Origin: Swingsia samuiensis
Lineage (GTDB): Bacteria; Pseudomonadota; Alphaproteobacteria; Acetobacterales; Acetobacteraceae
Length of the DNA stretch: 64,000 nucleotides
Assembly (NCBI RefSeq): GCF_006542355.1
Contig: NZ_CP038141.1
Coordinates: forward strand, 1,119,501 to 1,183,500
Direction: 5' to 3'
Positions 23,792 through 32,961 of this stretch are shown piece after piece. Each line of letters begins with the position of its first letter. Position 1 is the stretch's first letter. The position numbers were made by a program, and so were the translations under genes. The notes under the pieces are model-generated. The model searched no databases, was not told where the DNA came from, and saw nothing but the letters and a program-made list of their open reading frames with translations.

Positions 23792-24007
23792 AAAAAGTTC
23801 CCTAAATAATAAATTATTTTTGGGACCTTACAGAGGATGGGTTTTTCACACAATATGGAAAAGTGTAAAGTTCGATATCTGGCTATAATTTGCTACAATA
23901 AGAGGCATAAAAAACGCATCTCGCTCAAGATTCGAGATTATATTTTTGGGAAAGAATAGTTTTTGTGCTAGCTGCAAGAGTGTGATGTTTTTTTTAATTT
24001 GGGGCTT

Positions 24008-25276
24008 ATGAATCGTTCTGCACAAGCTGCGGTGATTGGAGCTGGAACAGCAACAGTAGTAACAGTTGTTGTGATGCTAACACTGGGGACCCACCGGGTA
24101 GCAGTTCAAGCCCCTTCTGTGATTAAACAGTCTTCCTCCGAGGCTAATATTCAGCCGTCCAATGCCTCGCCTGTTGTTATCAAGAAACATTTCATAATGA
24201 TGCCTGAGGCCCCTGTAGCGGGAGAAAGTACAGACAAGCATGGTCTCCCGATACAGCCGGCTGTTCCTGCGGCAGCACCTGCGTTGCCTCCTGTATTAGT
24301 TAAATATGGGCCTCTCACTTTTTCGCCGTTAGTGCGTCAGGTTATTCCTGCGGTGGTTAACATCGCGATTACCGAACATAGTGCATCTTCTGGCAAAGAA
24401 CGTGTCCCGCCCCAAATTAAAGGTACACCATTAGAAAAACGCTACCATGATCGGATGAAACAGCGCCAAGAAGAGATGATTGGCGCTGGTTCTGGGTTTA
24501 TTGTTGATCCTTCAGGAATTATCGTAACCAATCGGCACGTTGTGGGTGGCGCTGATAAGGTTGAAGTGTCTTTGTCAAATGGTCGCGAAATGCCGGCTCG
24601 TTTGCTCGGAAGTGATGAGTTGACGGATATAGCGGTAATTAAGGTTGATAGTGCTCAACCTCTCCCGCATGTAACATGGGGAAATAGCCGGCAGACTGAA
24701 ATTGGGGATTGGATTTTAGTCGCTGGGAATCCATTCGGGTTTGGGTCGTCCGTAACGGCGGGTATTGTGTCCGCGGTTGGGCGAGATTTGGGAATTGGCT
24801 CTTTAGACGATTTTATTCAGTTAGATGCTCCCATTAATCCGGGAAATTCAGGAGGTCCCGCTTTTAATATGCGGGGGCAAGTGATTGCTGTGAATGCAGC
24901 CATTGTGACTCCGGCAGGAGGATCTGTCGGTATTGGGTTTGGGATTCCGTCAGAAATTGTGGCTCCTATTGTTGCTGAGATTGAAGCCACAGGGCATGCA
25001 GAGCACGGGTGGCTGGGCATTACCCTTGATGATGGTGAAACCGATATCGGGATTGCAAGTGTTGATAATGGTGGCCCAGGGCAAAAAAGTGGGTTGCGCC
25101 GTGGGGATTTAGTTAAAAAAGTAGATGATATATCGGTTACAAGTGCGCGCATGTTATTGCGTTGTATTGCCGCAGCAAAACCGGGGATGACATTAAATTT
25201 TGTTGTGCAGCGCTCAGGAAAGAACTTAACACTTCCGGTCCATATTGGTCCTAGGCCGATGGATGCAGATAATTGA
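24008..25276 (+). CDS. HtrA/DegP-type periplasmic serine protease, single PDZ
   Basis: A 422-residue trypsin-like protease with an N-terminal membrane anchor or uncleaved signal (about residues 9-28) and a Pro/Ala-rich linker. The triad is His in VTNRHVVGG, Asp in ELTDIAVIKVD and Ser in NPGNSGGPAF. One C-terminal PDZ domain (LGITLDDGETDIGIASV...) makes it DegS-like in layout, unlike the two-PDZ protease at 51122. It is followed by a two-component system 79 bases downstream on the same strand. Together they suggest envelope protein quality control. The ATG at 24008 is preferred to an in-frame TTG at 23999. Confidence 0.9.
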   Translation: MNRSAQAAVIGAGTATVVTVVVMLTLGTHRVAVQAPSVIKQSSSEANIQPSNASPVVIKKHFIMMPEAPVAGESTDKHGLPIQPAVPAAAPALPPVLVKYGPLTFSPLVRQVIPAVVNIAITEHSASSGKERVPPQIKGTPLEKRYHDRMKQRQEEMIGAGSGFIVDPSGIIVTNRHVVGGADKVEVSLSNGREMPARLLGSDELTDIAVIKVDSAQPLPHVTWGNSRQTEIGDWILVAGNPFGFGSSVTAGIVSAVGRDLGIGSLDDFIQLDAPINPGNSGGPAFNMRGQVIAVNAAIVTPAGGSVGIGFGIPSEIVAPIVAEIEATGHAEHGWLGITLDDGETDIGIASVDNGGPGQKSGLRRGDLVKKVDDISVTSARMLLRCIAAAKPGMTLNFVVQRSGKNLTLPVHIGPRPMDADN

Positions 25277-25355
25277 TAAAATGATAGGTTGTTCTTTAAG
25301 AACAACAGCGTATTTTAGACAAAATTTTCCTAAGGGGTCGTAAGGAAAGAGAACG

Positions 25356-26036
25356 ATGAGAATCTTGTTGGTTGAAGACGATTCCACTGTACGGTCATTT
25401 ATTCTCAAAGGGTTGCGTGAGGCTGGCCATGTTGTGGATGAAGCAGGCAACGGCAAAGATGGATTGTTCCTTGCTGTCAGTGAAAATTATGATGTGGTTA
25501 TTTTGGACCGCATGCTCCCCGGGGGGATTGATGGCGTCCGCATTTTAGAGACTTTGCGTAGTCAACAAAATGCAACTCCCGTCTTGTTGCTTTCTGCTTT
25601 GGCAGATGTTGATGAGCGTGTTGCTGGCCTAAAAGCGGGGGGGGATGATTATATGACCAAGCCCTATGCTTTTTCGGAGCTATTAGCGCGTGTGGAAGCG
25701 TTGGGACGACGAGGACGCCCTGAGACAACGCCTCAGACAAAGCTGGCAATTGGAGATCTGGAAATGGATCTCTTATCGCGTACCGTGAAACGTGGGAATG
25801 AAAAGATAGACTTACAGCCACGTGAATTTCGTTTGTTAGAGTTTCTTATTCGGCATGCAGGGCAGGTCGTAACGCGAACAATGCTTTTGGAACGAGTCTG
25901 GGATTATCATTTTGACCCTCAGACGAATGTTATTGATGTGCATGTTTCACGGCTAAGACAAAAAGTAGATAAACCTTTTTCGACCTCTTTAATTCATACG
26001 ATTCGGAATGCAGGCTATATCCTGCGGGCGGATTAA
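25356..26036 (+). CDS. OmpR-family response regulator
   Basis: A 226-residue regulator: receiver domain at residues 1-115 with MRILLVEDD, phospho-acceptor Asp in VVILDRMLPG and the conserved Lys in YMTKPYAF, followed by a winged-helix DNA-binding domain (QPREFRLLEFLIRHAGQVVT to GYILRAD). It overlaps functionally with the kinase gene three bases downstream, forming a clear pair. Targets probably include the upstream protease and the two downstream exported proteins, by inference from the operon. Confidence 0.93.
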   Translation: MRILLVEDDSTVRSFILKGLREAGHVVDEAGNGKDGLFLAVSENYDVVILDRMLPGGIDGVRILETLRSQQNATPVLLLSALADVDERVAGLKAGGDDYMTKPYAFSELLARVEALGRRGRPETTPQTKLAIGDLEMDLLSRTVKRGNEKIDLQPREFRLLEFLIRHAGQVVTRTMLLERVWDYHFDPQTNVIDVHVSRLRQKVDKPFSTSLIHTIRNAGYILRAD

Positions 26037-26039
26037 CTT

Positions 26040-27452
26040 GTGAAGGCTAATGGATCATTCTCATTTAAAAAGGTGATGCATTGGCCTATCCGGTCGGCAG
26101 GGCTGAATTTTGCCTTTGGCTATGGTGTGGTTTTTGTTCTGTCAGCCATATTTTGTTTATCTTTTATTTGGTGGAATACGACAGGCCAGCTGGATCGATC
26201 TGTACAGGCAGCGGTTCAGATTGATGCACGCGATCTTCAACAACGTTGGCTTCATGGTGGCGTAGAGGATTTAACGATCGCAATACAAGATCGTCTGGAT
26301 CAAAACGTTGAAGATGATGAATTATATTTGTTAACGGGGCCTGATGGCCGAAAATATGCAGGAAATCTACCTGGATGGCCTGTGGTTATTGGGAATACCA
26401 ACAAGTTTTATGAGTTAACCATTCGACGGGACGGATTACGCTCACAGGCAAAATTGCATGCGTATCATTTGTCGGCAGGGTATCAACTCATTGTTGGGCG
26501 GGATATTAAGGGACGGCAGCTTGTTCGGCATGTTCTGACAGATACATTAATATGGGCTGGGGTGATGATCACATTGTTTGCCGTAGGGGGCGCACTGGTG
26601 ATCAGGAGAATTTTTCGACAAGTTGTTCATTCTATTGTGCGCACAACCTCTGCGGTTGCTCAGGGTGATTTAGGCCAACGGATTCCTCTTGTGGGGAATG
26701 AAACAGATCTAGTGGCTCATACCATCAATACGATGTTGGAGCGTATTAATCGGTTGATGGATGGTGTGAAACAGGTGTCGAATGCCATAGCGCATGATTT
26801 AAGAACACCGATCACACGCGCTCGGACACGTTTGGAAGATGCAAGCCTGCACGCCTTCTCTGATGGAGAGTTACGAGCAGCGATTGACCGAGCAATTTCA
26901 GATCTCGATCATATAACATCAATTTTTGAAGCTTTATTAAGAATTGCCCAGCTAGAAGCCGGAGCAAGACGGTCTGCCTTTACGGTTGTAGAACTTAAAC
27001 CGCTACTGGAGAATTTGTACGAATTTTATGACCTTCTGTCAGAGGAGAAAGGCATAAAACTCAATCTTCGGATAAAAGAGAATGGATGTGTAAAAGGAGA
27101 CCCACAGCTTATCCAACAGGCTGTTGCGAATATGTTGGATAACGCAATAAAATTTTCGCCTTCTAATACAGAAATTACGTTAACGTCTTGGGTCGAGAGA
27201 GAAAAAGTTCGTATTGCTGTAATCGATCAAGGGGCGGGGATGCCTCCTGAAGATATCAAAAGAGCATCAGAACGTTTTTTTCGTGCAGAATCTTCCCGTC
27301 ATACACAAGGGTCTGGTTTGGGGCTATCTTTGGTTCAGGCTGTTGTAAACTTACATGGTGGCACTATGGAATTAAGTAATTGCTCACCAGGTTTTCAGGT
27401 TGTTTTATCTTTTTTAGTTATGAATAAAAAAGAAAGAAAAGAAGTTGTATGA
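26040..27452 (+). CDS. Sensor histidine kinase of the HtrA-linked operon
   Basis: A 470-residue membrane kinase. Two membrane helices (about residues 22-46 and 171-191) bracket a periplasmic domain of roughly 120 residues, then a HAMP domain, the phospho-acceptor His in NAIAHDLRTPITRART and an ATPase domain with NMLDNAIKFSP, DQGAGMP and GSGLGLSLVQ. The layout resembles CusS/QseC-type sensors. GTG start at 26040. The signal is unknown; proximity to HtrA suggests misfolded envelope protein or metal stress. Confidence 0.92.
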   Translation: MKANGSFSFKKVMHWPIRSAGLNFAFGYGVVFVLSAIFCLSFIWWNTTGQLDRSVQAAVQIDARDLQQRWLHGGVEDLTIAIQDRLDQNVEDDELYLLTGPDGRKYAGNLPGWPVVIGNTNKFYELTIRRDGLRSQAKLHAYHLSAGYQLIVGRDIKGRQLVRHVLTDTLIWAGVMITLFAVGGALVIRRIFRQVVHSIVRTTSAVAQGDLGQRIPLVGNETDLVAHTINTMLERINRLMDGVKQVSNAIAHDLRTPITRARTRLEDASLHAFSDGELRAAIDRAISDLDHITSIFEALLRIAQLEAGARRSAFTVVELKPLLENLYEFYDLLSEEKGIKLNLRIKENGCVKGDPQLIQQAVANMLDNAIKFSPSNTEITLTSWVEREKVRIAVIDQGAGMPPEDIKRASERFFRAESSRHTQGSGLGLSLVQAVVNLHGGTMELSNCSPGFQVVLSFLVMNKKERKEVV

Positions 27453-27494
27453 CATAAAAATTATGTATTTTTTATTTTTATATAAAAATAATTG

Positions 27495-27854
27495 ATGTAT
27501 AAAAATAGAATGAGAAATTTATTTATTCTTTTTTTATGCGTTTTAATGTTAGGAATTTTTAATAATTCCAAGGCAGCAGCAATTTCTCATGAAAATACAA
27601 AAAAAAATATAGTAAATAAATCGGATGGTACGATTTCTGTAACATCTGAAAGCATGGATTATTGTCAAAAATTAGTAAAAAATGTGGATAAATATTTGAT
27701 TCAGCCGCATGAAATTCCTGTGGGAGCGATGGAAGATGCTCTGCGTTTAAGACAAGAGGGCGAGAAGTTTTGTCAGCATCATCGCATTCGAGGCGGGATA
27801 GCAAGGCTTCGGCGTGCTTTGGTTTTAATTAGGTCAAGTCAGGAACATAAATGA
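27495..27854 (+). CDS. Small exported protein with two cysteines, unknown function
   Basis: A 119-residue protein with a signal peptide (LFILFLCVLMLGIFNNSKAAA). The mature part is helical and basic, with one Cys in MDYCQKLVKNVD and one in EKFCQHHRIRGGIARLRRAL; they could form a disulfide. An internal ATG at 27510 is an alternative start. The gene overlaps the next by four bases (ATGA), so it belongs to the operon with the kinase. No domain is recognised. Its AT-rich first third differs from the neighbours. Confidence 0.75.
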   Translation: MYKNRMRNLFILFLCVLMLGIFNNSKAAAISHENTKKNIVNKSDGTISVTSESMDYCQKLVKNVDKYLIQPHEIPVGAMEDALRLRQEGEKFCQHHRIRGGIARLRRALVLIRSSQEHK

Positions 27855-28555
27855 AACGCTTATTCGGGGTGGCTGCTTCTGTCGTGGCCGTAGCGTCTTG
27901 TCTGTCAACACAGATTGCGAGAGCAGCAGACAACAATGCCTCCTCCAATACAGAATTGACTTTTTCTGTTTCTGGGGAAGTTCGCTCGGCTCCAACACTA
28001 TTAACGGCTCATTTGTTTGCGCAAGCACAGCGTTTGTCTGCTGTTGATGCACAAAAAATATTGAATGCGACGATCGCCGATGCCATGAAAATGGCTTCGA
28101 AACAGGCCGGTATAGATGTTAAGGCGGGTAGCTACTCTATTTCTGACTATACCCCCGAGCATGGCCATACTCAGTGGACAGCGCGTCAAAACATTAAGCT
28201 GAGTGGGAAAGACGCTGTTTCTATTCTTGATCTATCAGGAAAGTTACAGAGCCATGGCTTAATGCTGGAGGGACTGGACTGGTCTTTAGACGCTAAAACG
28301 CGAGACACACTTACTCAGCAGGCCCGAACGCAAGCGTTGAGCAAAGTAAAAGCTCAAGCTGAAGAAAGTGCAAAAGCATTGGGACTGCACCTTATTCGGC
28401 TAGAAAAGGTGGATATTTCCTCATTTCAACCTGAACAGCCTTATGAGATGTTACAAGCACGAGTAGGCGGCTCTGCTATGGAGGCGCCTCAAAGTAGTCC
28501 AGAAAGCCAGGTTGTGAAGGTTACTGTAAACGTGAAAGCAATTTTGGCACCATAA
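27851..28555 (+). CDS. SIMPL (DUF541) domain periplasmic protein
   Basis: A 234-residue exported protein (signal peptide ending at IARA-AD). The SIMPL/DUF541 domain is recognised from the N-terminal strand TFSVSGEVRSAPTLL, the helix ADAMKMASKQAGID and the C-terminal repeat ARTQALSKVKAQAEESAKAL followed by LHLIRLEKVD. Family members such as BP26/Omp28 and YggE form periplasmic oligomers and have been linked to oxidative stress. Translation is coupled to the preceding gene by an ATGA overlap. Confidence 0.85.
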   Translation: MKRLFGVAASVVAVASCLSTQIARAADNNASSNTELTFSVSGEVRSAPTLLTAHLFAQAQRLSAVDAQKILNATIADAMKMASKQAGIDVKAGSYSISDYTPEHGHTQWTARQNIKLSGKDAVSILDLSGKLQSHGLMLEGLDWSLDAKTRDTLTQQARTQALSKVKAQAEESAKALGLHLIRLEKVDISSFQPEQPYEMLQARVGGSAMEAPQSSPESQVVKVTVNVKAILAP

Positions 28556-28564
28556 TATAAGAGG

Positions 28565-28601
28565 TTTCCTGAGGAGCTTTGGGCAAGAGCTCTTCAGGAA
28601 A
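28565..28601. terminator. Shared hairpin between the SIMPL gene and putA
   Basis: A 14-base stem (TTTCCTGAGGAGCT with AGCTCTTCAGGAAA, one G-U pair) with a nine-base loop lies between two convergent genes. The putA stop codon (28594-28596) is inside the right arm. It is well placed to end both transcripts. Confidence 0.6.
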
Positions 28602-31600
28602 GAGACATGGCAACAGGATCACCACAGAGGGATGCTGTATTTGTTGTTATAACACGTTCGTTAAGAAGCCATTCAGGGCGCAGGGCATCGAGCATATGAA
28701 TGGGAACAATTTTCCCTTCACGAGCCGTTAAGGTGGCTGCGGCTTCAAGGGCGTATTGTGAGTTGCGTTCCATAATCATGATAGAACATTCAGGTAGAGC
28801 TCCGGGATAAATACGCTCAATACGGTCTGTTAAACTCTTTGGTAGAAGGCGGATCCATTCAAGAGCATGATCAGGTCCAAGAACTTGAACATTGTTTCCT
28901 GTGCCAAGTGCCAAGCCTACGGCTCGCAAGATTTGAGGCCAGTTATTGCCTGCACATAAAATTGGACCGGCAGGAATAAGAGTGAGGGTATTTGTCTCCC
29001 CAGAAGGGCTGGGAAGAGCCATCTTCCAATTCAGAAGCGTATGAGCGATATCTTGGCGAATTTGTCGGGCAGAGACGGCATCGCGGCTTTCAAGGAATGT
29101 AACCAAATTCTGAGCCGCACGGGAAACATTTCCTTGAGTGACGTGCTCTAGTTTGATCCATGGAAGAGGTGGCGGCCCTGCAATCATACGGCGTAAGGCA
29201 AAGGGGCCGCCTGCTTTTGCCCCACAACCAGACATGCCGTGACCACCAAAAGGTTGAGCATGTGGCAGAGTATCGATCATATTGCGGTTAATATAAATAT
29301 TATCCGCTTCGATACGGTTTATGGCGCGTTCGATTGTGGAGGGAATGCGAGAATGAATACCAAAGCTTAAAGCAAAACCCATAGAATTGACCGCATCAAT
29401 GACACCATCAAATTCCTGTCGTGAAAAACGACGAATATGGAGGACAGGCCCGAAAACTTCATTGGGAATATCAGCGACACGTCCAATTTCAATGAGTGTT
29501 GGTGGAAGAAAGCAACCATATCGACAGTTTTCATCCAGTTCTGGGGACCAGACGCTCCTCCCAGCACGTCTCATCATATCAAGATGATCAATGATCTCTG
29601 TCCGTGCTTCATTGGAAATAATTGGGCCGATATCGGTTTGTAAACGGGATGGATCTCCAATGATGAGATCTTGTATCGCTTTTTTTAGAAGAGTGATGAT
29701 CTGATCCGCACATTCCTCTTGAATAAGAAGAATACGTAATGAGGAGCAATGTTGGCCTGCATTTGTAAATGCTGATTTTAGAATATCTTGTACGGCTTGC
29801 TCAGGGTGGGTGGAGCTATCAACAAGGAGAGCATTTTGGCCTCCTGTTCGCGCTACAAAAATAGTCGGGCTTCCCGTGCGGCCTTGTCTGTTAAATGTAT
29901 GCCGTGAAATCGTTTTTCCTGTCTGTGTTGACCCCGTAAACATGACCGCATCAATACGCGGGTCAGAAACAAGTCGCTCTCCAACGGTTTCATTTCCCAG
30001 AAGAAGGTAAAGGACATTTTCAGGGACGCCGGCGGCATAGAGGAGTTGTATCGCTTTATAGGCAGAGAAAGGAACTTGCTCAGCAGGTTTGGCGATAACA
30101 ATATTGCCAGCAGCTAAGGAAATAGAGATTTGATGGATGAAGGCTGCAAGAGGACTACTCCACGGGCTAATGCAGGCAATGAGCCCGAGCGGATACATAT
30201 TTTTGTGGAATGGTTGATTGTTTAAGCTGCTGGCATTGTAGCGTAAAAAATTAACAGCTTGGCGCACTTCTTGTTGAGCAGAAAGAATCGTTTTTCCTGC
30301 TTCTTTTATCAGTAAGGCAATAAATTCATTGCTGTGCTCTTCAAAAAGGTCTGCTGCTTTTTTAAGCATCTCTCCACGTAAGGCGGGGGTGGTTTGTCCC
30401 CATTCTGGTAAGGCTTCCTCTGCAGATTTGATAGCATGAAGTAAAACAGCTCCATCGGCTTCAATCACTTCGCCTAATGGTTCTTGGTGGTCTGCAGGAT
30501 TGTAAATAATTCGAGAAGAATTTGATGAGTTTTTTTGACGATAAGTCAGAGAAGTTGCGTGGAAAAAAGAAGGTAATGCTTGAAGACTGTCTTCAAAGTT
30601 CCGGAGAGCATGTTCAGTTGTGAAATCAAGACCAATTGAATTTTTATAAGCTGGCATAAAGAGGTCAGACGGAAGAACAACAGAAGGAGTGACATTTTCT
30701 TCTTCTGGAATTGCATCTGCTGCCGCTATGGGGTTTTCGGTTAAGGTTTCAATCGTTGTAACATTTGGGTTGTGATCTTCTTCCTGTGTAAAGGGAGAAA
30801 GAATATTGGCTTCAAGTGTTTGACGTACAAAGCGTGGTAACCACGCTTGAGCCGCTCCAATTGGCGCATGAATCCGGCATGACGATTGAAAGAGGTCTTT
30901 AAACTTTTGAGGCCACGCTAGACCCGCTGCATAAGGAAAAGAAAATTCATATTTTTCTGGTGAAGGTTTACCTGCGACAGTAAGAATATGACCGATAATG
31001 CGTGGATTTTCGGTGGCAAATTGTGTGTAGAGATGCGGGGATGTGATTAATTTTTGTGCACAGGCAAGATAGCTGATGTCTGTATGGCATCGATGTGTAA
31101 AAATAGGGAAATCAATGAGCCCTGATTGTTGGGCTTGCCGTATTTCTGAGTTCCAAGATGAGCCGTGCGTTAAGCGCACAATTATTTTGCGAGCTGTGCG
31201 GTCTGCCAGATCAGTTAGGAAATCAATTGTTTTATGCGCACGCTTATCATAAGCGTTGAGAGTAATCCCTAAACCATTCCAGTTTTGTAGTTCAGGTGTT
31301 GAGCATAAACTCTCAAACAGATCCAGAGTAGATTCAAGGTGCTGACTATTTTCAACACTAAAGATCAAGCCAATATCGAGTTGCTTTGAACGGTTGGCTA
31401 AGCGTTGCAAGGCAGGAAGTAGTTCGTTGATCAGCCTGTCACGTCGAAAGCGCCCAAAATGCGTGATAAGCGCTGGCAGGCGAACGTAAAGAAATGGCCT
31501 TTCATACAGAGAGCCCGTAATACCTGCATGTTGACCAAGGGTCTCAAGTGCATTTTCGTAGGATGTAAGGGCTTTGAAAGCTTGGTCAGCGGTAAGGGCT

Positions 31601-32238
31601 GTCTCAGCTTGGAGGTCATATATGTAATTAAAGTTATGTTTTTCATAACTTTTGATGGTTTTGAATGCGGCAGGTAAATGGTTACCTATAATAAAAGATT
31701 GGGCAGCGGCAAGTAAGGTTTTTTCTAACCCTTTGCGAATCATCGGTGTAGAGGTTTGGAGCGTGAGTCTTTGTAAACTAAAGCCTTTGCTCGCCTTGAG
31801 CTGTCCCATTAAGGACATATTGAGAGCAAAAGAATTGGCAAGTGACTGGTTTTGTTTCTTAATATGGCGCGCCCAATTCGTCTTATTGAATTGAGAGCGA
31901 ATAAGAGCGTCTTTAGTTGTTGCGTCTGGGATACGAAGGAACGTTTCAGCGAGGGAAATAAAAGACTGCCCTTCAGGAGAAGAAAGAGGAAAAGTCTTTA
32001 AAAGCTGTTCAAGATTATTAAGAGGAGTTTTTTGCTTTGCTTCAAGAATAATGCGAGCAAACCGCTCTGTTTGCTTGTTTTGCTCAGAATTTAAACGCGC
32101 ATACGGTAACAAATCTTCAATACAAACTTTTTCAGAACGAAAATGTGTGTCCGCTATCGCCTCTCGCAATTCAGATTGCGGTGCCTGAGAGAATGAAAAT
32201 TTGAAAGATGACGAAGGAGGAGTGGTGAGTTGTTGCAT
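28594..32238 (-). CDS. putA: PutA homologue with degenerate proline dehydrogenase and aldehyde dehydrogenase active sites
   Basis: A 1214-residue protein collinear with PutA from its alpha-domain (SLAETFLRIPDATTKDALIR) through the proline dehydrogenase barrel, P5C dehydrogenase and C-terminal domain, lacking only the N-terminal ribbon-helix-helix. PutA oxidises proline to glutamate using FAD and NAD. Compared with E. coli PutA from memory, the barrel has lost key residues: Tyr540 is His457, Tyr552 is Arg469, Arg556 is Gln473, Asp370 is Ser, Lys329 is Arg, GAYW is GSSW and LHGM is absent. In the second half the nucleophile Cys831 (NAGQHCSS) and EVFGPV remain, but the oxyanion Asn is Ser694 (SPWSSP) and the general-base Glu is Arg797 (ARTGGQNA). 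The frame is intact, so this looks like a maintained pseudoenzyme or one with altered chemistry; proline catabolism should not be assumed. Confidence 0.85.
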   Translation of the reverse strand: MQQLTTPPSSSFKFSFSQAPQSELREAIADTHFRSEKVCIEDLLPYARLNSEQNKQTERFARIILEAKQKTPLNNLEQLLKTFPLSSPEGQSFISLAETFLRIPDATTKDALIRSQFNKTNWARHIKKQNQSLANSFALNMSLMGQLKASKGFSLQRLTLQTSTPMIRKGLEKTLLAAAQSFIIGNHLPAAFKTIKSYEKHNFNYIYDLQAETALTADQAFKALTSYENALETLGQHAGITGSLYERPFLYVRLPALITHFGRFRRDRLINELLPALQRLANRSKQLDIGLIFSVENSQHLESTLDLFESLCSTPELQNWNGLGITLNAYDKRAHKTIDFLTDLADRTARKIIVRLTHGSSWNSEIRQAQQSGLIDFPIFTHRCHTDISYLACAQKLITSPHLYTQFATENPRIIGHILTVAGKPSPEKYEFSFPYAAGLAWPQKFKDLFQSSCRIHAPIGAAQAWLPRFVRQTLEANILSPFTQEEDHNPNVTTIETLTENPIAAADAIPEEENVTPSVVLPSDLFMPAYKNSIGLDFTTEHALRNFEDSLQALPSFFHATSLTYRQKNSSNSSRIIYNPADHQEPLGEVIEADGAVLLHAIKSAEEALPEWGQTTPALRGEMLKKAADLFEEHSNEFIALLIKEAGKTILSAQQEVRQAVNFLRYNASSLNNQPFHKNMYPLGLIACISPWSSPLAAFIHQISISLAAGNIVIAKPAEQVPFSAYKAIQLLYAAGVPENVLYLLLGNETVGERLVSDPRIDAVMFTGSTQTGKTISRHTFNRQGRTGSPTIFVARTGGQNALLVDSSTHPEQAVQDILKSAFTNAGQHCSSLRILLIQEECADQIITLLKKAIQDLIIGDPSRLQTDIGPIISNEARTEIIDHLDMMRRAGRSVWSPELDENCRYGCFLPPTLIEIGRVADIPNEVFGPVLHIRRFSRQEFDGVIDAVNSMGFALSFGIHSRIPSTIERAINRIEADNIYINRNMIDTLPHAQPFGGHGMSGCGAKAGGPFALRRMIAGPPPLPWIKLEHVTQGNVSRAAQNLVTFLESRDAVSARQIRQDIAHTLLNWKMALPSPSGETNTLTLIPAGPILCAGNNWPQILRAVGLALGTGNNVQVLGPDHALEWIRLLPKSLTDRIERIYPGALPECSIMIMERNSQYALEAAATLTAREGKIVPIHMLDALRPEWLLNERVITTNTASLCGDPVAMSLS

Positions 32239-32372
32239 GCTGATCTAGGAGAAAGAAAGTCCAAGAGGGCTTTAATTATGAAATGTTTCTTGCTCTTGGA
32301 AGATTTACAATAAAGACATTTTATAGTGATTATGGGAAGAGCTTTATCTTAAATATTCTCTTAAAAATAAAG

Positions 32373-32404
32373 AAGCCAGCCAAAATAATAATGGCTGGCT
32401 TTTT
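32373..32404 (-). terminator. Terminator downstream of infC
   Basis: A nine-base stem (AAGCCAGCC with GGCTGGCTT) and an 11-base A/T loop lie 20 bases beyond the infC stop. T-rich sequence flanks both sides, so it can also act on the plus strand. In many bacteria rpmI and rplT follow infC; here this hairpin ends the unit. Confidence 0.78.
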
Positions 32405-32424
32405 AAATGGTATAGAAATTAAAC

Positions 32425-32961
32425 TTAGCGTGGAGCTAAAACCATCAACATTTGGCGGTTTTCCAGCTTTGGCATTTGTTCAATTTTGGCTTTTTCTTCG
32501 ACTTCAGCGCGAATGCGCTCCATCATTTTGATACCAAGTTCTTGGTGAGCCATTTCACGGCCTTTGAAGCGGAGGGAAATTTTCACCTTATCACCGTCTT
32601 CTAAAAAGGACTGAATCGCTTTGAGCTTGGTTTGGAAGTCATGCTCACCTGTTCCAGGACGAACTTTAACTTCTTTAATCTCAATAACTTTTTGCTTTTT
32701 ACGGGCTTCGTTCTTTTTCTTTTGCTGTTCGTATTTGAACTTGCCGTAATCTAGAATTTTGACAACGGGAGGAACAGCTGTCGGGCTAATTTCTAATAAA
32801 TCAAGCCCAGCCGAGAAAGCCTTATTTAAGGCATCACGCGTTGACATGATTCCAATCATTTCACCAGCTTCGTCAATAAGACGAACTTGTGGCACACGGA
32901 TTTCCTCGTTGACACGCGGCCCTTCACGAGTGGGCGCGGACGGCATCGGCGGTCTAGATAT
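32425..32961 (-). CDS. infC: Translation initiation factor IF-3, AUA start
   Basis: A 178-residue IF-3 that binds the 30S subunit and checks start codons. The N-domain starts RVNEEIRVPQVRLID, the linker is KYEQQKKKNEARKKQKV and the C-domain has RPGTGEHDFQTKL and SLRFKGREMAHQELG. The first ATG (32946) is 21 bases from the only Shine-Dalgarno, AGGAG at 32968-32972. An ATA at 32959-32961 is six bases from it and yields ISRPPMPSAP, so ATA is the likely start. E. coli infC uses AUU, through which IF-3 represses its own synthesis; the same logic probably applies here. thrS lies upstream on the same strand, as in E. coli. Confidence 0.93.
   Translation of the reverse strand: MSRPPMPSAPTREGPRVNEEIRVPQVRLIDEAGEMIGIMSTRDALNKAFSAGLDLLEISPTAVPPVVKILDYGKFKYEQQKKKNEARKKQKVIEIKEVKVRPGTGEHDFQTKLKAIQSFLEDGDKVKISLRFKGREMAHQELGIKMMERIRAEVEEKAKIEQMPKLENRQMLMVLAPR

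Follow-up and report, generated by a model that had tools for sequence, protein, structure and literature searches.

We analysed a window of 64,000 nucleotides from Swingsia samuiensis (GCF_006542355.1, contig NZ_CP038141.1, positions 1,119,501 to 1,183,500; positions below are those of the window). On its minus strand, at 28594-32238, lies an intact 1214-codon frame of the PutA type, which begins with ATG and encodes 1214 amino acids with zero internal stops. As listed in Table 1, the PutA domains were found by Pfam in their usual order, with the C-terminal domain after the aldehyde dehydrogenase (ALDH) module. Comparison with S. meliloti PutA (SmPutA) by phmmer gave an E-value of 2.9e-231, aligned from residue 10 onward. 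An AlphaFold2 model of residues 15-1214, made from an 18-sequence alignment, had a mean predicted local distance difference test score (pLDDT) of 77.8 and a predicted template modelling score (pTM) of 0.77, and it matched SmPutA over the full length at TM 0.86-0.88 when overall folds were compared. With proline dehydrogenase (PRODH), ALDH and C-terminal domains, and with full-length homology and fold, the protein belongs to the type B PutA family. The ribbon-helix-helix domain of trifunctional (type C) PutA was absent from its Pfam matches, and the layout predicted from the sequence is type B. DNA binding, which the initial annotation had listed among possible roles, is unsupported on both counts.

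Table 1. Features of the putA-type gene and its surroundings in the window; residues are numbered on the window protein
Feature	Position	Strand	Basis
Lineage III PutA paralogue (putative pseudo-PutA), 1214 codons	28594..32238	-	ORF (open reading frame) and Pfam
PutA PRODH N-terminal domain, residues 22-62	32053..32175	-	Pfam PF18327
Alpha-domain, Pfam 'Pro_dh-DNA_bdg', residues 76-180; ribbon-helix-helix domain not reported	31699..32013	-	Pfam PF14850
Proline dehydrogenase barrel (Pro_dh), residues 192-478, substrate residues lost	30805..31665	-	Pfam PF01619
R253 = E. coli K329; R in 10/10 degenerate Gluconobacter copies	31480..31482	-	alignment
S294 = E. coli D370	31357..31359	-	alignment
H457 = E. 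coli Y540; H in 10/10 degenerate Gluconobacter copies	30868..30870	-	alignment
Q473 = E. coli R556	30820..30822	-	alignment
Aldehyde dehydrogenase module (Aldedh), residues 576-1018	29185..30513	-	Pfam PF00171
S694 = oxyanion-hole Asn, E. coli N779	30157..30159	-	alignment
R797 = hydrolysis-promoting Glu, E. coli E883 / SmPutA E810; R in 10/10 degenerate copies	29848..29850	-	alignment; role from PMC12398946 (in part)
C831 = nucleophilic Cys, E. coli C917; kept in 11/11 Gluconobacter lineage III copies	29746..29748	-	alignment
C-terminal domain, about residues 1040-1214; best-conserved part of Gluconobacter lineage III copies	28597..29121	-	identity and column comparison
SIMPL/DUF541 protein	27851..28555	+	homologue in the fetched stretch of 11/11 Gluconobacter lineage III loci, not always adjoining
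Terminator-like hairpin and T run after infC	32363..32405	-	read by eye; not listed by scan
infC (IF-3), upstream neighbour	32425..32946	-	Pfam

The initial annotation had proposed that this full-length homologue lost catalytic residues in both enzyme halves. We checked each claim on an alignment that included E. coli PutA; we matched the residue numbers of E. coli PutA, SmPutA and the window protein ourselves, from alignments. All of the named substitutions were upheld, as were the full length of the protein and the retention of C831, EVFGPV and KPAEQ in the ALDH half. Besides the changes in Table 1, R469 stands in place of E. coli Y552, HGSSW in place of KGAYW, FPYAAG in place of CLHGMG and FATEN in place of FATHN. 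Of seven E. coli residues by which we judged PRODH activity (K329, D370, Y437, Y540, Y552, R555 and R556), the window protein keeps R555 alone. It has been reported that SmPutA K265, Y473, L449, R488 and R489 touch proline or a proline analogue, and that N707, E810 and C844 act in the aldehyde step (PMC12398946, in part). The window counterparts of the first set are R253, H457, P435, R472 (kept) and Q473; those of the second, by which we judged 1-pyrroline-5-carboxylate (P5C)/glutamate semialdehyde dehydrogenase activity, are S694, R797 and C831, so that the Cys is kept while Asn became Ser and Glu became Arg. The blocks around H457-Q473, S694, R797 and C831 are of equal length in the window protein and E. 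coli PutA, which makes a shifted catalytic residue unlikely.

Several other positions remain. R472 (E. coli R555), R355 (R431) and E476 (E559) are retained in the window protein, and C831, E646, K717, F767, T768, G769, E927, F929, G1004, G1006, K1008, G1010 and G1011 are invariant across all 11 Gluconobacter copies of the window's paralogue (lineage III, described below). By comparison with the ALDH family, K717, F767, T768, G769, E927 and F929 would form the side that faces nicotinamide adenine dinucleotide (NAD), and G1004 to G1011 in this list the aldehyde-anchor loop. Slow PutA chemistry through substitute residues could be imagined from R472, R355, E476, C831, the anchor loop and the NAD-side residues that persist. 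However, the residues at K329, D370, Y540 and R556 are gone together with the oxyanion Asn and the Glu, and an intact PutA is present in the genome, so we regard such residual activity as very improbable. The equivalents of E. coli Q404, K434 and H487, presumably on the side of flavin adenine dinucleotide (FAD), are lost in the window protein and retained in copies L004 and L046. FAD is thus unlikely to be the common thread of these proteins.

Two PRODH genes were found in the window genome, which measures 2.19 Mb and is rated 100% complete. The second, an intact putA of the kind that the initial annotation had suggested seeking, encodes a protein (L033) that is 39% identical to the window protein and intact at all 16 checked active-site positions. 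Against the bifunctional PutA equivalog model NF008869 of NCBIfam (cut-off 747 bits), L033 scored 1402 bits and the window protein 889. An Lrp/AsnC regulator gene lies divergently about 130-160 bases from the intact PutA (L001). PutR, a member of the Lrp/AsnC family, was reported to activate putA and to adjoin it in many Alphaproteobacteria (PMC6168545, in part). Compared with the ORFs of those lineage III loci that were retrieved, this regulator gave zero matches; the single match was at a lineage II locus (L086). The other PRODH gene was intact at 16 of 16 checked positions in all 11 Gluconobacter genomes with lineage III, and in eight of nine Asaia genomes, the ninth (G319) being split. The intact PutA of Gluconobacter (L062 and L049-L060) comes as two alternative lineages, one per genome (11 of 26 genomes have one, 15 of 26 the other), an alternation that is likely to reflect replacement.

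We next describe how lineage III is distributed. Genomes were taken as one per species, and the wider family was sampled in 299 genomes with two candidates scored in each; further holders may exist outside the sampled genomes. The name Gluconobacter rests on L094 of G. cerinus NBRC 3267, which is 100% identical to L044 of G302, and the name Asaia on Asaia sp. W19, which matches L090 at 96.7%. The lineage III orthologue of G. cerinus NBRC 3267 shares 59% identity with the window protein. Lineage III was found in 11 of the 26 Gluconobacter genomes searched, with an open frame in each, and each of these genomes had exactly one other PRODH gene; the remaining 15 had a single PRODH gene. A tie between lineage III and a particular intact PutA (10 of 11 lineage I genomes, 1 of 15 lineage II genomes) was dropped as evidence. 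In the thrS tree, the 15 genomes without lineage III are one clade of 14 plus G304, and since the 14 lineage II genomes without it form that clade, the pattern may reflect a single event.

In a tree of 28 proteins, whose models assume one composition (violated by L003 and by the L006 group), lineage III took in L005, L008, L010 and L040, the last a piece without its first part; all four keep the listed residues. The orthologues in G025, G022 and G048 retain both active sites. In G022 and G048 lineage III is the sole PRODH gene, and G025 has two PRODH genes. G317 (L047) is intermediate: its PRODH site is complete and its oxyanion Asn and Cys remain, but the general-base Glu is replaced by Gln. 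In the five open Asaia copies, Cys became Ser and Glu became Asp in all five, K329 became Arg in four and Cys in one (G320), and Y540 became Leu or Met, whereas D370, R556 and the oxyanion Asn were retained. Forcing eight Gluconobacter and three Asaia degenerate proteins into a single clade cost 118.6 log units (p-AU 3.2e-6 in the approximately unbiased test, with unequal row compositions and a group picked after an earlier FastTree tree). As judged from these sequences, Asaia inactivated lineage III separately from Gluconobacter, through other residues. The initial annotation could not tell whether the altered protein was specific to one lineage or found across acetic acid bacteria. The alignments and searches answer that lineage III is an old PutA paralogue, neither strain-unique nor general in acetic acid bacteria. 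Its members can be arranged by how far one bifunctional enzyme has gone towards a pseudoenzyme: the copies of G022, G048 and G025 look active, that of G317 is half-altered, and ten Gluconobacter copies, as well as the separately changed Asaia copies, are altered in both halves.

Selection was estimated as the ratio of nonsynonymous to synonymous divergence (dN/dS) by the Nei-Gojobori method with our own script, in 12 species pairs (nine Gluconobacter, three Asaia), for lineage III and the intact copy. Saturated dS left two pairs without a whole-gene value for lineage III and one pair without it for the intact copy. In the six pairs with lineage III dS <1 (five Gluconobacter and one Asaia), lineage III gave 0.043, 0.024, 0.065, 0.073, 0.065 and 0.072, and the intact copy 0.039, 0.084, 0.065, 0.060, 0.059 and 0.104, its dS being 1.17-1.18 in two of them. 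Such low values, 0.02-0.07 in close orthologue pairs, make the simple decay raised by the initial annotation unlikely there, the window's own copy lying outside this measurement. The orthologues are conserved, have lost catalytic residues and, by these estimates, are under strong purifying selection; the window's own branch is judged by indirect evidence. Its frame is open across a branch of 0.5 changes per column, while simulated neutral drift left 0 of 200 frames open at 0.05 changes per site and 12 of 200 at 0.02. Identity between the window protein and the L004 group is.53 in the PRODH domain and.66 in the C-terminal domain. The window gene and the intact copy are alike in GC content at third codon positions (.352 and.356).

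We examined where this constraint acts in 10 Gluconobacter species that carry both lineage I and lineage III (nine degenerate copies and one half-altered, L047), giving 45 non-independent pairs. Mean pairwise identity of the intact copy was.786 in PRODH,.723 in ALDH and.558 in the C-terminal domain, and that of lineage III was.562,.653 and.717, respectively. The C-terminal domain exceeded PRODH in 44 of 45 pairs for lineage III and in 0 of 45 for the intact copy. Of the 191 columns in the C-terminal domain, 57 are invariant in the 10 degenerate copies but variable in canonical PutAs; the corresponding counts are 20 of 336 for PRODH, 11 of 161 for the arm and 33 of 446 for ALDH. Of the 57 C-terminal columns, 54 hold in L047, 41-42 in three Asaia copies, 21-22 in L049 and L062, 11 in L033 and 8 in E. 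coli. The active-site-intact orthologues have a C-terminal domain less conserved than PRODH (.69 vs.77 between L005 and L008). On the alignments, constraint on lineage III now falls chiefly on the C-terminal domain and the ALDH shell.

The degenerate copies also share new residues. Among columns invariant in 24 canonical PutAs, seven carry a single replacement residue shared by all 10 degenerate copies, three of them in the active sites (K329R, Y540H and E883R). Together with the Cys retained in all 11 copies, this would suit a new enzyme whose rebuilt sites (R253, H457 and R797, plus the retained C831) convert a related substrate in a different reaction. Yet 33 further canonical-invariant columns are lost but variable among the degenerate copies, the FAD-side residues differ between the window protein and L004 and L046, and no neighbour suggests a pathway. 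We therefore consider a new enzyme unlikely.

We think it fairly probable, reading the sequences as a whole, that the window gene codes for a PutA pseudoenzyme retained for something other than catalysis, most plausibly as a ligand-binding regulator or as a partner of the intact PutA. An old PutA duplicate, still active-site-intact in G022, G048 and G025, would have become redundant beside another PutA. In Gluconobacter the losses may have begun with the ALDH general base, as in the single genome G317, and gone on to the PRODH substrate residues and the oxyanion Asn; this order is our inference. Strong purifying selection would have preserved the fold, the loop that anchors the aldehyde, several residues on the NAD side and, most of all, the C-terminal domain. 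Such a protein should be unable to oxidise proline, but may bind NAD(H), glutamate or glutamate semialdehyde, or may attach to the intact PutA or, by its C-terminal domain, to the membrane, and so could regulate or assist proline and glutamate metabolism. The residues kept fit a sensor or partner protein to which NAD and glutamate-like ligands bind without being turned over. NAD binding is plausible and FAD binding by the window copy doubtful. In work on Rhodobacter PutA, the C-terminal domain was reported to play a part in ALDH activity and in channelling and was proposed to be essential for functional switching, and proline-activated lipid binding was observed (PMC5293562, in part). It is possible, though doubtful, that lineage III forms a new regulatory class of PutA, in which a catalytically dead double enzyme would sense the state of NAD and glutamate/P5C, perhaps with the aldehyde stalled as an adduct on the retained Cys. 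Its C-terminal domain, whose conservation is new, would relay the signal to the membrane or to the intact PutA. The interpretation of the initial annotation, a non-catalytic role maintained by selection, is thus partly supported: purifying selection on the orthologues favours it, while its suggestions of DNA and FAD binding fared worse.

Several observations weigh against a retained non-catalytic role. The C-terminal signature is mostly older than the loss of catalysis, since L005, L008, L010 and L040, whose active sites are intact, already share 37-44 of the 57 columns. In two deeper Asaia pairs, whole-gene dN/dS of lineage III was 0.150 and 0.152 versus 0.109 and 0.113 for the intact copy. 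The closest relative of the window copy among the genomes searched is only 59% identical, which is why the evidence for its own branch is indirect, and this copy is among the most degraded, with 66% of 311 canonical-invariant positions retained. In 15 of 26 Gluconobacter genomes the syntenic locus showed no trace of lineage III (tblastn at 1e-3 with five lineage III queries; flanking neighbours present on both sides). In Asaia the gene occurs in nine of nine genomes, open in five and broken in four, and it is broken in two of the six with at least 90% completeness and at most 5% contamination. The G046 orthologue has a frame break and that of G126 several breaks and stops. A gene so often lost or broken must be dispensable and cannot be essential. 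The breaks and absences, along with a mean identity below that of the intact copy (.61 vs.71 over the same species pairs), would also suit slow decay, in which a redundant gene drifts to loss, its frame is open by chance and its dN/dS reflects old selection. We judge this quite unlikely, as dN/dS was 0.024-0.073 between recent species, frames were open in 11 of 11 Gluconobacter copies, identical new residues occurred in 10 of 10 degenerate copies, and simulated drift of 5% put stops into all 200 frames.

A pseudoenzyme of this kind can be set beside known systems. Type B PutA (e.g. SmPutA, PDB 5kf6) resembles the window protein in length, domain order and fold, but the window protein has lost catalytic residues in both sites and constraint has shifted from the PRODH barrel to the C-terminal domain, which indicates a role of that domain beyond catalysis. 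ALDH16A1, a pseudoenzyme of the ALDH superfamily, likewise keeps the fold without catalytic residues; it was described as lacking the whole triad (PMC10650815, in part), whereas the Gluconobacter copies keep the Cys and have an altered PRODH half as well. Trifunctional PutA repressors (PMC5293562, in part) and a regulatory PutA of Ralstonia (PMC9132996, in part) are precedents for non-catalytic PutA roles, although the cited parts also describe them as catabolic enzymes, and no ribbon-helix-helix domain was found in the window protein. The trypanosome AdoMetDC prozyme, a dead paralogue that activates the live enzyme (PMC6221367, in part), shares the trait of a dead paralogue beside a live one; for the window protein, a complex with the live enzyme is a conjecture. 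Among the matches listed in a literature search with partial journal coverage, nothing dealt with dead PutA, or with PutA or proline dehydrogenase in Gluconobacter or acetic acid bacteria. The NF008869 equivalog also scored L004 and L046 above its cut-off and L006 just below, and its call of the window protein as a working PutA is likely an annotation error. A genome paper on Asaia bogorensis lists two proline dehydrogenases (PMC4596401, in part), one of which is probably the altered copy.

The hairpin and T run after infC suggest that the window gene is probably transcribed on its own. By eye, a clear Shine-Dalgarno sequence was not seen before its ATG (32239-32260). An operon with a proline transporter had been expected and was rejected; the divergent neighbour at many loci is a tetratricopeptide repeat (TPR) protein instead. 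At six other Gluconobacter loci (L067-L072) the TPR-protein gene flanks putA on the side facing thrS-infC; it is missing in the window, where just 186 bases (32239-32424) are left in its place. At 23999-28555 the window has a cluster of a trypsin/PDZ protease, a response regulator, a histidine kinase, a small protein and the SIMPL protein, members of which recur near lineage III loci. The broken Asaia copies (G085, G318, G286 and G319; loci L179-L182, L191-L193 and L195) are split or partly missing and have open-frame relatives; in G319 the intact-lineage PutA is split too. In the small-genome relatives G046 (L081, 7992-11593) and G126 (L197-L200), broken lineage III PutA gave the only PRODH matches, and these relatives may therefore have lost proline catabolism. 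In 8 of 26 Gluconobacter genomes there is an additional threonyl-tRNA synthetase gene (L230-L233), which shares 53-54% identity with that of the window and perhaps confers inhibitor resistance.

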